DNA from: Peptococcaceae bacterium SCADC1_2_3
GTDB lineage: Bacteria > Bacillota > Desulfotomaculia > Desulfotomaculales > Nap2-2B
NCBI GenBank assembly: GCA_000681355.2
Contig: JJNX02000014.1
Coordinates: forward strand, 1-37,989
Length of the DNA stretch: 37,989 nucleotides
Direction: 5' to 3'
The notes below the pieces were generated by a model. It ran no database searches. It saw only the letters and a program-made list of their open reading frames with translations, and was not told the DNA's origin. Of this stretch, positions 6,961-26,424 are shown piece after piece. The number at the start of each line of letters is the position of its first letter. Position 1 is the first letter of the stretch. Both the position numbers and the translations under genes were made by a program.

Positions 6961-6997
6961 AAATGATCGGCACAACCTTAGCCCGGAATTCTTTCGT

Positions 6998-7050
6998 AAG
7001 GCAGGCCTTATCTCTATATGGGAGTTGAGACCTGCCCTTATTTTAAAAGG
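6998..7050. repeat. 53-bp hairpin repeat, copy 1
   Basis: AAGGCAGGCCTTA and, 15-20 bp later, GAGACCTGCCCTT pair as arms, followed by TTTTAAAAGG. Nearly the same 53-bp unit recurs at 8005-8057. Position 6998-7050 precedes no gene on either strand. Confidence 0.65.
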
Positions 7051-7993: not shown

Positions 7994-8057
7994 CATTAAT
8001 AGTTAAGGCAGGCCTTAACTATTAATGGGAGTCGAGACCTGCCCTTGTTTTAAAAGG
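7994..8057. repeat. 53-bp hairpin repeat, copy 2, with a perfect 16-bp palindrome
   Basis: Bases 8005-8057 repeat the unit at 6998-7050 (GGCAGGCCTTA ... GAGACCTGCCCTT ... TTTAAAAGG). In this copy the left part is embedded in a perfect palindrome, CATTAATAGTTAAGGC, loop AG, and its complement (7994-8027). The two palindromes overlap and could form alternative hairpins. Confidence 0.65.
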
Positions 8058-8183
8058 AGCAAAGGCAAAAGGTCCAAAGGGAAATTAAAACGTATAGAGA
8101 TCTGCATGTAGGGGCAGACCTGCGTGTCTGCCCTGATGCCTTTGTGCCTCTGTGCCTTTGTCCCTATGAACCTGAATAGTTAC
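8058..8183 (+). mobile_element. Interspersed GTAACT element, copy A (left end eroded)
   Basis: The right end is intact: GTGCCTTTGTCCCTATGAAC then CTGAATAGTTAC at 8183. Inside is the degenerate start of the four-helix-bundle gene (AAAACGTATAGAGATCTGCA; the ATG has become ATT), and nested after it a hairpin with arms AGGGGCAGAC/GTCTGCCCT, identical in position to the one in copy B. The left terminal GTAACT is missing and no direct repeat can be assigned. The apparent peptide over the right end (LCLCAFVPMNL) is repeat-derived. Confidence 0.75.
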
Positions 8184-8998: not shown

Positions 8999-9222
8999 GT
9001 AACTATTCAGGTAGGCACAGAGGAGCAAAGGCACAGAGGAGCAAAGGCACAGAGGAGCAAAGGGAAATAAAAACCTGCCTGCCGCGCCTGCCTGTGCGTT
9101 GCACGCAGACAGGCAACGGCGCAGGTAGACGTATAGAGATCTGCATGTAGGGGCAGACCTGCGTGTCTGCCCTAATGGCTTTGTGCCTGTGTGCCTTTGC
9201 CCCTATGAACCTGAGTAGTTAC
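8999..9222 (+). mobile_element. Interspersed GTAACT element, copy B (two nested hairpins)
   Basis: Ends are GTAACTATTCAGGTAGGCAC at the left and CCTATGAACCTGAGTAGTTAC at the right, inverted to each other over the outer 14 bp. Next to the left end is a threefold 15-bp tandem repeat (GGCACAGAGGAGCAAA). The element core AAA-ACGTATAGAGATCTGCA is split by a G+C-rich palindrome (about 9077-9129, CCTGCCTGTGCGT...ACGCAGACAGGC) and followed by the AGGGGCAGAC/GTCTGCCC hairpin also found in copy A. The flanks (TAAATTTT, TATTAATT) are A+T-rich but do not match. The 102 bp from here to rnhA show no feature I can name. Confidence 0.8.
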
Positions 9223-12646: not shown

Positions 12647-12705
12647 TATGTTTTCATTTCCCTTTGCCCCTCTGTGCCTTTGCTCCTATGAACCTGAGTA
12701 GTTAC
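12647..12705 (-). mobile_element. Interspersed GTAACT element, copy C (half element)
   Basis: Read on the minus strand, it starts GTAACTACTCAGGTTCATAG, runs through GGCACAGAGGGGCAAAGG, and stops right after the first codons ATGAAAACATA of the four-helix-bundle start. The other half is gone. It occupies the space between ileS and the DUF167 gene, where related genomes often carry divIVA. Confidence 0.75.
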
Positions 12706-14621: not shown

Positions 14622-14658
14622 GCAAACCCTCCTTATGACAATAAATATAAATTATATA

Positions 14659-14848
14659 GTAATTACTCAGGTTCATAGGGGCAAAGGCACAGAGGCACAA
14701 AGTTTTTTGCCAGACTTGCAGATATCTAGTAGTATGTAGTTGACAGTTTTTAGTTTACAGAAAAGGAAGTACCAATGTTGAGACTAAAAACTCAAAACTA
14801 TCCACTAAAAACTATCAATTGGACCTTTGTGCCTACCTGAATAGTTAC
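14659..14848 (-). mobile_element. Interspersed GTAACT element, copy D, with perfect 8-bp direct repeats
   Basis: Ends are GTAATTACTCAGGTTCATAG (left) and TGCCTACCTGAATAGTTAC (right). It is flanked on both sides by ATTATATA (14651-14658 and 14849-14856), a perfect 8-bp target duplication. The core start-codon region is replaced after ATATCTGCAAGTCTGGC (minus strand) by about 85 bp holding its own inverted repeat, AGTTGACAGTTTTTAGT against ACTAAAAACTATCAATT. It sits between yggS and sepF. Confidence 0.85.
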
Positions 14849-14858
14849 ATTATATATA

Positions 14859-16245: not shown

Positions 16246-16279
16246 TTTCTATACTCCCTGATTTAATGGTATGTTTTTT

Positions 16280-16397
16280 GTAACTACTTAGGTTCATAGG
16301 GGCAAAGGCACAGAGGCACAAAGTTTTTTTGCCAGACTTGCAGATTTCTATATGTTTTCATTTTCCTTTGCCCCTCTGTGCCTACCTGAATAGTTAC
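16280..16397 (-). mobile_element. Interspersed GTAACT element, copy E: minimal 118-bp form, perfect 8-bp direct repeats
   Basis: The simplest intact copy. On the minus strand: GTAACTATTCAGGTAGGCAC, AGAGGGGCAAAGGAAA, then ATGAAAACATATAGAAATCT GCAAGTCTGGCAAAAA (MKTYRNLQVWQK), then CTTTGTGCCTCTGTGCCTTT and an inverted end GTAGTTAC. Flanking repeats are TGTTTTTT at 16272-16279 and 16398-16405, perfect and 8 bp. It separates pstB from phoU. Confidence 0.9.
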
Positions 16398-16461
16398 TGT
16401 TTTTTAATATATTATGTATCTTCCCGGTTGACAAGTAAAAATTCACCTTGAAAAAAACTTT

Positions 16462-17267: not shown

Positions 17268-17601
17268 GTAATTACTCAGGTTCAGAGGGGCAAAGGCACA
17301 GAGGCACAAAGTTTTTTTACCAGACCTGCAGATCCCTATACGTTTTCATTTTCCTTTGCCCCTCTGTGCCTACCTGAATAGAGTTTCGACCATAACCTTC
17401 CGCTATGTTGCCGGGAACTGAAATCGCGCAACGTCTCATTTGAGAAGTTAATCCGTAAGCTTCATCCTTGAGAAACCCTTTAGAAATCTTATATATTTCA
17501 GTAACTAAAGTCATTGATTTTTACCAGACTTGCAGATTTCTATATGTTTTCATTTTCCTTTGCCCCTCTGTGCCTTTGCTCCTATGAACCTAAGTAGTTA
17601 A
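17268..17601 (-). mobile_element. Interspersed GTAACT element, copy F: composite, still carries four-helix-bundle gene
   Basis: On the minus strand the outer left end (TAACTACTTAGGTTCATAGG) and leader run into ATG and about 57 codons of a four-helix-bundle gene, which breaks off into a complete second element (about 17382 down to 17268; its own GTAACT end is trimmed to CTATTCAGG at the gene junction). Direct repeats TTTATTTTA lie at 17258-17266 and 17603-17611, one or two bases off the ends. The gap 17245-17720 contains only this element plus the promoter region of the next gene. Confidence 0.8.
17317..17553 (-). pseudogene. Four-helix-bundle protein (S23/Avd-like), broken copy inside element F
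   Basis: From ATG at 17553 the frame reads MKTYRNLQVW, a TAA stop (codon 11, 17521-17523, where other copies have CAA), then KSMTLVTEIYKISKGFLKDE and AYGLTSQMRRCAISVPGNIA EGYGRN. This is the N-terminal half of the four-helix-bundle family (TIGR02436) known from 23S rRNA intervening sequences and related to Avd of diversity-generating retroelements; members are about 115-130 residues. The second half is replaced by a new element copy, from which the last codons up to the stop at 17317 are read (again MKTYRDLQVW). Without the first 10 codons a 65-residue frame from MTLVTEIY remains open, but half the bundle is missing. Confidence 0.8.
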
Positions 17602-22449: not shown

Positions 22450-22640
22450 ATAGGGGCAAAGGGGCAAAGTGCCAAAGGCACAAAGTTTTTTTGCCGGACT
22501 TGCAAATCTCTTTAGGATTTAGGATTTAGGATTTAGGATTTAGCTAGCCCCTATGTTTTCGTTTCCCCTACATCCTAGCCCCTACATCCTAGCCCCTACA
22601 TCCTAATCCCTACTGTTAGGACCTCTGTGCCTCTGTGCCT
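22450..22640 (-). mobile_element. Interspersed GTAACT element, copy G (ends eroded, internal tandem repeats)
   Basis: The outer 14 bp of both ends are missing, but the inner parts GGCACAAAGTTTTTTTGCCG and ACTTGCAAATCTC are the element core on the minus strand. The centre holds about five TTTAGGA heptamers (22511-22543) and three 14-bp units CCCCTACATCCTAG (22566-22607). The same arrangement with fewer units is in copy H. The element abuts the dnaE translation start region, so dnaE transcripts from upstream must pass through it. Confidence 0.75.
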
Positions 22641-22656
22641 CATTTCATATCACTTC

Positions 22657-26108: not shown

Positions 26109-26177
26109 AAGAAATAAATGGAAAGACAAGTTTAAGGTTTAAGAATATTAAAATAGGTTTCTATTATTTTATTTTTA

Positions 26178-26353
26178 GTAACTATTCAGGTAGGCACAGA
26201 GGTCCAAACAGTAGGGATTAGGATGTAGGGGCTAGGATGTAGGGGAAACGAAAACGTAGGGGCTAGCTAAATCCTAAATCCTAAAGAAATCTGCAAGTCT
26301 GGCAAAAAACTTTGTGCCTCTGTGCCTTTGCCCCTATGAATCTGAGTAGTTAC
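26178..26353 (+). mobile_element. Interspersed GTAACT element, copy H, with perfect 8-bp direct repeats
   Basis: Ends GTAACTATTCAGGTAGGCAC and CTATGAATCTGAGTAGTTAC are flanked by TATTTTTA at 26170-26177 and 26354-26361, a perfect 8-bp duplication. The core AGAAATCTGCAAGTCTGGCA AAAAACTTTGTGCC is intact, but GAAAACGTA before it is separated by tandem repeats: two 14-bp GGGGCTAGGATGTA units and two CTAAATC heptamers, the same family as in copy G. It fills most of the gap between the branching enzyme and DUF503 genes. Confidence 0.9.
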
Positions 26354-26424
26354 TATTTTTATCTGTTTCTAGCTTGTTTTAATTACATTTTTTTGTTAAT
26401 CTTTTTAGTTGAGGAAGGTTGAAT

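Follow-up and report, generated by a model that had tools for sequence, protein, structure and literature searches.

The question raised by this locus is whether two short repeat copies, E and F, in the window (the whole stretch of DNA analysed, 37,989 nucleotides) are remnants of a cassette that moves as DNA between inverted ends. They are: the window contains several copies of a small element whose sole gene comes from an rRNA-insert protein family, and the cassette is built from a single S23/IVP four-helix-bundle gene (PF05635/TIGR02436) set between complementary low-complexity arms and bounded by inverted ends (GTAACTAYTCAGGT). The copies and their target duplications are listed by position.

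8055-8183, plus strand: copy A, truncated, right terminus only
8999-9222, plus strand: copy B, both termini, without the gene and without a matching duplication
12647-12705, no strand assigned: copy C, a fragment with one terminus
14651-14658, no strand: left target duplication of copy D, 8 bp, ATTATATA
14659-14848, minus strand: copy D, a 190-bp deletion derivative with the gene start only; site empty in relatives
14849-14856, no strand: right target duplication of copy D, 8 bp, ATTATATA
16272-16279, no strand: left target duplication of copy E, 8 bp, TGTTTTTT
16280-16397, minus strand: copy E, a short deletion derivative of 118 bp with both termini intact; site empty in three relatives
16326-16361, minus strand: gene start remaining in copy E, MKTYRNLQVWQK
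16398-16405, no strand: right target duplication of copy E, 8 bp, TGTTTTTT, completing a perfect pair
17268-17601, minus strand: copy F, a composite of a four-helix-bundle half-gene joined to a second, E-like unit; ends GTAATTACTCAGGT and ACCTAAGTAGTTAA
17268-17379, minus strand: E-like unit within copy F, with a truncated terminus (TATTCAGGTAGGCAC), arm, second gene start, outer arm and outer terminus
17380-17553, minus strand: half-gene of copy F, covering codons 1-58 of the S23/IVP gene and interrupted by TAA as codon 11 (about 17521-17523)
22451-22642, no strand assigned: copy G, arms kept, both termini lost, with an internal module common to copy H
26170-26177, no strand: left target duplication of copy H, 8 bp, TATTTTTA
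26178-26353, plus strand: copy H, a 176-bp deletion derivative in the opposite orientation
26354-26361, no strand: right target duplication of copy H, 8 bp, TATTTTTA

The ends of copy E are GTAACTACTTAGGT and ACCTGAATAGTTAC, and its minus-strand interior (ATG AAA ACA TAT AGA AAT CTG CAA GTC TGG CAA AAA, encoding MKTYRNLQVWQK) bears out the initial annotation, which had read an ATG plus the start of a gene between the terminal repeats. For copy F the same leader and start followed by half of the gene had been proposed; this holds up to codon 58, but the copy is a composite with an E-like unit and its frame (MKTYRNLQVW*KSMTL...) has TAA as codon 11, a stop that makes it a dead half-gene. Its assignment to the four-helix-bundle family stands, the ORF scoring 59.2 bits against the PF05635 profile (curated cut-off 33.8). 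The gene is interrupted near codon 58 (GGTCGAAACTC) and followed by the E-like unit minus its first bases (TATTCAGGTAGGCAC...). This junction recurs in the genome's other half-gene copies, and therefore had a single origin and then spread; target duplications at these copies are perfect (L005, L007) or have one mismatch (L003). No clean target duplication was found at copy F (4 mismatches in 8), and the copy is missing from three relatives (G001, G002 and G003), though erosion has affected both its ends and its target. The orthologous site in G003 (L180, contig C36) has an unrelated low-complexity insert of ~100 bp (AGAGGTTAGAGGTTAGAAGTTAG...), which may be what is left of a cassette with a different arm type.

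Elsewhere in the window, the module common to copies G (22525-22599) and H (26211-26285) is inverted between them, 96% identical and made up of AGGATTTAGG/CCCCTACATCC repeats without a known origin. A separate 54-bp repeat pair (6997-7050 and 8004-8057) carries a TAAGGCAGGCCTTA palindrome, and one member abuts the truncated copy A. Rfam gave no match over the copies.

In the genome of the window (G000; 2.59 Mb, 259 contigs) the 14-bp terminus, allowing ≤2 mismatches, has 177 matches, compared with 15 for a reversed-pattern control, and the consensus of 44 ends, GTAACTA[CT]TCAGGT, is near-invariant. The 8-bp flanking duplications are perfect at 17 of 42 distinct end pairs (shuffled-flank control: mean 0.44, maximum 4), while none is perfect at 5-7 bp. 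The sites of copies D and E are empty in G001, G002 and G003, all of the same genus, where the target is present as a single copy (by alignment, the copy D target measures 7 bp in G001 and G003). The element is inserted in both orientations and outside rRNA genes, the window copies sitting between protein genes. Among 48 catalogued end pairs, nine enclose a half-gene, 23 only the gene start (the first 12 or so codons) and 16 no gene. That nearly half of the pairs keep only the gene start fits the central idea of the initial annotation, that deletions in a mobile inverted-repeat cassette with an S23/IVP gene gave rise to the small copies, and this idea is supported. With terminal inverted repeats, target duplications, multiple copies and no transposase, the criteria for a MITE or mobile insertion cassette are met. 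The element is a real, DNA-mobile passenger cassette with an rRNA-insert-family gene as its sole gene, which explains the repeats of 86-334 bp scattered through the genus.

Full-length cassettes, whose existence had only been surmised, were identified in G009 and G063 (intact gene with these ends) and, near-intact, in G061. In G009, which belongs to a sister genus within the family, PF05635 detected 29 matches, mostly at contig ends; these are about 18-20 near-identical intact-gene copies with different outer flanks, on which the assembly breaks. Cassette ends here are GTAACTATTCAGG-CTGTTAGGCTGTAGG... and ...CCTAAACAACCTGAGTAGTAAC, and four left and right halves could be matched by identical 8-mers beside the end (AATTATCT, AATAAATA, TCAAGAAG and TCTTTTTT). 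The joined cassette, assembled across a 107-nt identical overlap since no whole copy lies on one contig, is 473 bp long and includes a 117-codon ORF preceded by AGGAGGAAATT; the intact protein scores 115.1 bits with TIGR02436 (cut-off 24) and 112.2 bits with PF05635 (cut-off 33.8). Single contigs carry the intact gene plus both ends in G063 (L310; left end GTACCTATTCAGG, duplication only 6/8) and a near-intact gene plus both ends in G061, a Desulfobacteraceae MAG (L300/L191; ATA in place of the ATG start, no matching duplication). L119 of G003, from the genus of the window, has kept its two ends and the entire gene, although the frame is damaged. The gene-bearing copies beyond G009 include those of Desulfobacteraceae and KSB1 MAGs.

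The terminus is expanded in the four genomes of the genus, with 73, 51, 27 and 10 exact matches (control matches, 0), and again in G061, with 37 matches (control, 1). A class-wide search (113 genomes) revealed no further terminus expansion outside the bacterial family; elsewhere in the class the terminus is rare. Proteins 86-89% identical to the gene of the window's genus were found in Desulfobacteraceae and in a Pseudomonadota-labelled MAG, which points to horizontal transfer. Viral-contig pattern searches and plasmid and phage comparisons yielded nothing.

GTAACT ends were found on two distinct gene clades, with GGCACAAAG arms in one and TAGGCTGTAGG arms in the other, and G060 (L271, L275, L282, L294, L296 and L298) has the same terminus on a third arm type, AGTCAGAAGTC, with a perfect 8-bp duplication (AATAGTGA) at L282. 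The tree disfavours, without rejecting, one origin of the coupling between ends and gene (AU p = 0.085). Comparison of the whole gene between G060, G061 and G062 gave dN/dS of 0.13-0.18, and the first 59 codons of the window-genus consensus gave 0.03-0.06 against the same three genomes; for half-gene and truncated copies in the window's genus, some with stops, pooled pN/pS is 0.67. On these substitution ratios, the gene is under selection while whole and decays after truncation.

These observations bear on the possibility that the element is an ordinary IS66-derived MITE with an accidentally captured four-helix-bundle gene that is irrelevant to the life of the element. Most copies in the window's genus are gene-less or keep only the first 12 or so codons, and half-gene copies bear stops, which favours this possibility. 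G045 (L073, L055, L066 and L077) also has 'empty' MITEs sharing these ends, with GTAACTATTCAGGT at one end, unrelated contents and nine exact termini; in one of these elements, 179 bp in size, the 8-bp duplication is perfect (CTACTCCT), and an IS66 gene was not found in G045. Accidental capture is nevertheless hard to reconcile with identical ends on two gene clades with different arms, plus the third arm type in G060, or with dN/dS of 0.03-0.18 between gene copies of different genomes. A single origin is not formally rejected; we regard accidental capture as unlikely rather than eliminated.

The initial annotation had not seen the connection with IS66, which is an addition here. Elements of this family typically have ends starting with GTAA and generate 8-bp repeats (PMC11946415). 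Two IS66 transposases were identified in the window genome (profiles NF033517 and PF03050), and both elements are flanked by exact 8-bp duplications (AAAAATTC and TATAGCTC) and have ends of the form GTAAGTATTCA[CG]T... and GTAA[CT]CATTCAGT...; a third, L142 in G003, has duplications of AAATAATG. Across the bacterial family, all IS66 elements with mappable ends are of the form GTAANYATTCRS, three of them with exact 8-bp duplications. Mapped IS66 ends are identical to the cassette end at 9-12 of the first 12 bases, the full 12/12 being seen for an IS66 end (GTAACTATTCAGTAAAC) in G006, from a sister genus. Of the carriers, G000, G003, G006 and G062 have an IS66 transposase, whereas G001, G002, G060, G061 (despite its 37 termini) and G063 yielded none and G009 no more than a weak fragment; these are in part incomplete MAGs. 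The 473-bp cassette encodes only the four-helix-bundle ORF and no transposase (TnpC) of its own. Neither an autonomous element with cassette-identical ends nor a transposase gene between ends matching the cassette beyond base 12 was found. A DruA (Druantia)-domain protein (193 bits) adjoins the IS66 transposase at L051 (3084-4061), and L052 has a similar-looking protein.

As cassette ends match those of IS66 in the same bacterial family (GTAA[CG]TATTCAG, 8-bp duplications), an IS66-mobilised passenger cassette is the likeliest mechanism; the IS66 step is only inferred, since several carrier genomes show no IS66 gene. The mover could instead be a non-IS66 transposase that likewise acts on GTAA ends and duplicates 8 bp of target, a reading that draws on those same carriers and on the likeness to IS66 ends fading beyond base 12. 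It has to contend with the uniform GTAANYATTCRS form of all mappable IS66 ends in the family, three with exact duplications, and with the absence of any other candidate beside the cassette ends examined, and appears decidedly improbable.

We therefore favour as probable a non-autonomous DNA transposon in the form of a transposase-less passenger cassette, most likely moved by IS66 in trans, whose truncated derivatives become MITEs. A full copy of ~0.47 kb would comprise a terminus (GTAACTAYTCAGG), a G-rich tandem-repeat arm ending in a Shine-Dalgarno, the S23/IVP gene, the complementary arm and the inverted terminus, and would insert in AT-rich DNA with duplication of 8 bp. Movement is inferred to depend on an IS66-family transposase recognising GTAA[CG]TATTCAG ends in trans. 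In the transcript the arms may pair to form a long hairpin resembling 23S rRNA intervening sequences (IVS), and the protein may be useful to cassette or host, perhaps by binding the nucleic acid of the hairpin. Truncated derivatives would eventually come to predominate, as miniature transposable elements (MITEs). What the analysis shows is the ends with their 8-bp duplications, the empty sites, intact-gene versions present in many copies in other genomes, protein-level selection, and deletion derivatives, of which half-gene, gene-start and gene-less forms have spread in the genus of the window. The predicted RNA of the cassette folds far better than shuffled versions, with the arms paired (z = -7.5 and -7.2).

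A relationship to 23S IVS had been suggested. It holds as regards gene family and the layout of the hairpin arms: the window genome contains a genuine 23S rRNA insert (L001; G000, contig C16, 9129-9446), apparently at helix 45 judging from its sequence context, that likewise has a four-helix-bundle gene. It does not extend to the rest, as L001 carries another family member (long-branched, its tree placement unreliable) in different complementary arms and has no GTAACT ends. The cassette and 23S IVS share the gene family, complementary arms around the gene forming one hairpin, and a size of ~0.45 kb (428 nt for the Coxiella IVS; PMC4990558), but the cassette lies outside rRNA and has conserved DNA ends and 8-bp target duplications. 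Among 80 named four-helix-bundle loci from many phyla, arm complementarity exceeds the highest control value in 58, and GTAACT ends are almost absent. That four-helix-bundle genes elsewhere might lack these termini had been named as an observation that would refute the interpretation; this condition is fulfilled in part, as most such genes in other bacteria do lack them, but two clades do not. GTAACT ends as a general trait of four-helix-bundle genes were rejected, the 80 named loci and relatives being mostly without them, and the ends are thus an addition on two gene clades rather than family-wide.

The common gene family and hairpin-arm layout of L001 would also suit an intervening sequence spreading via RNA, by transcript excision and retro-insertion, rather than a DNA transposon. 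For the GTAACT-ended element this route was rejected on the strength of exact 8-bp DNA duplications at defined ends and single-copy empty targets, and insertions outside rRNA genes in either orientation speak against it too; we give it very little credence. Growth of low-complexity repeats by slippage or recombination, with the gene match of copy E derived from copy F, is consistent with arms made of tandem repeats of variable number but is refuted by the empty sites, and is practically untenable given exact target duplications, intact genes flanked by these ends elsewhere and a gene start alone in 23 of 48 end pairs, so that recombination between E and F, the other proposed refutation, fails.

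Several known systems come close to the presumed IS66-mobilised passenger cassette. IS66 insertion sequences have similar GTAA ends (here GTAA[CG]TATTCAG) and 8-bp duplications, and intact elements with such ends are present in the same genome, but the cassette lacks a transposase and the match does not extend past about the first 12 bases. Mobile insertion cassettes or transporter IS, such as the IS231-related MICs of Bacillus cereus, carry a passenger gene between IS ends and are mobilised in trans; they likewise place a passenger between IS ends, but with another transposase family, whereas the passenger here is an rRNA-insert protein in complementary arms. Gene-less and gene-start copies of 86-250 bp match bacterial MITEs in structure, number and target duplications, but stem from a gene-carrying form still extant in other genomes. 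The intact protein weakly matches Avd of diversity-generating retroelements (NF033474, 19.7 bits), below the cut-off of 80, and the 473-bp cassette has no reverse transcriptase or variable repeat; homology of the four-helix-bundle protein and Avd folds has been suggested (PMC10053308).

A transposon with this gene, or an element of this make-up, was not found described in the literature, although subscription journals were mostly not covered and absence is not proof. Function and origin of 23S rRNA intervening sequences and their protein have been a puzzle since 1990, and to our knowledge no moving element has so far been linked to the proposals of IVS mobility. In the present case a gene of that family is the only one between transposon ends, and it is accompanied by 8-bp duplications, by empty sites and by signs of purifying selection. 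IVS origin and function are described as unclear, hypotheses including transposition remnants and ORF-dependent mobility (PMC4990558), and 23S_rRNA_IVP was called functionally uncharacterised in a CPR survey (PMC11270868). With gene-bearing mobile cassettes in relatives, the 30-year-old question of whether the inserts move and what the protein does becomes testable. It is conceivable, and offered only tentatively, that S23/IVP genes in complementary tandem-repeat arms form one large cross-phylum mobile class, of which 23S IVS are copies landed in rRNA, with the protein as a mobility or survival factor acting on the hairpin and GTAACT-ended lineages having adopted IS66 ends.

Other four-helix-bundle genes were found inside protein-coding genes. 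L111 (G006, contig C69, 33651-33965) and L113 (G009, contig C76, 226-540) lie within a type III Mod DNA methyltransferase gene, the host frame remaining open across the insert, in a different frame. A further four-helix-bundle cassette, L112 (G045, contig C1, 202067-202384), is located within a methylase-like gene and has its own complementary arms (GTGGTTGGTGGATAG and CTATCCACTCGCCACTAACCAC).
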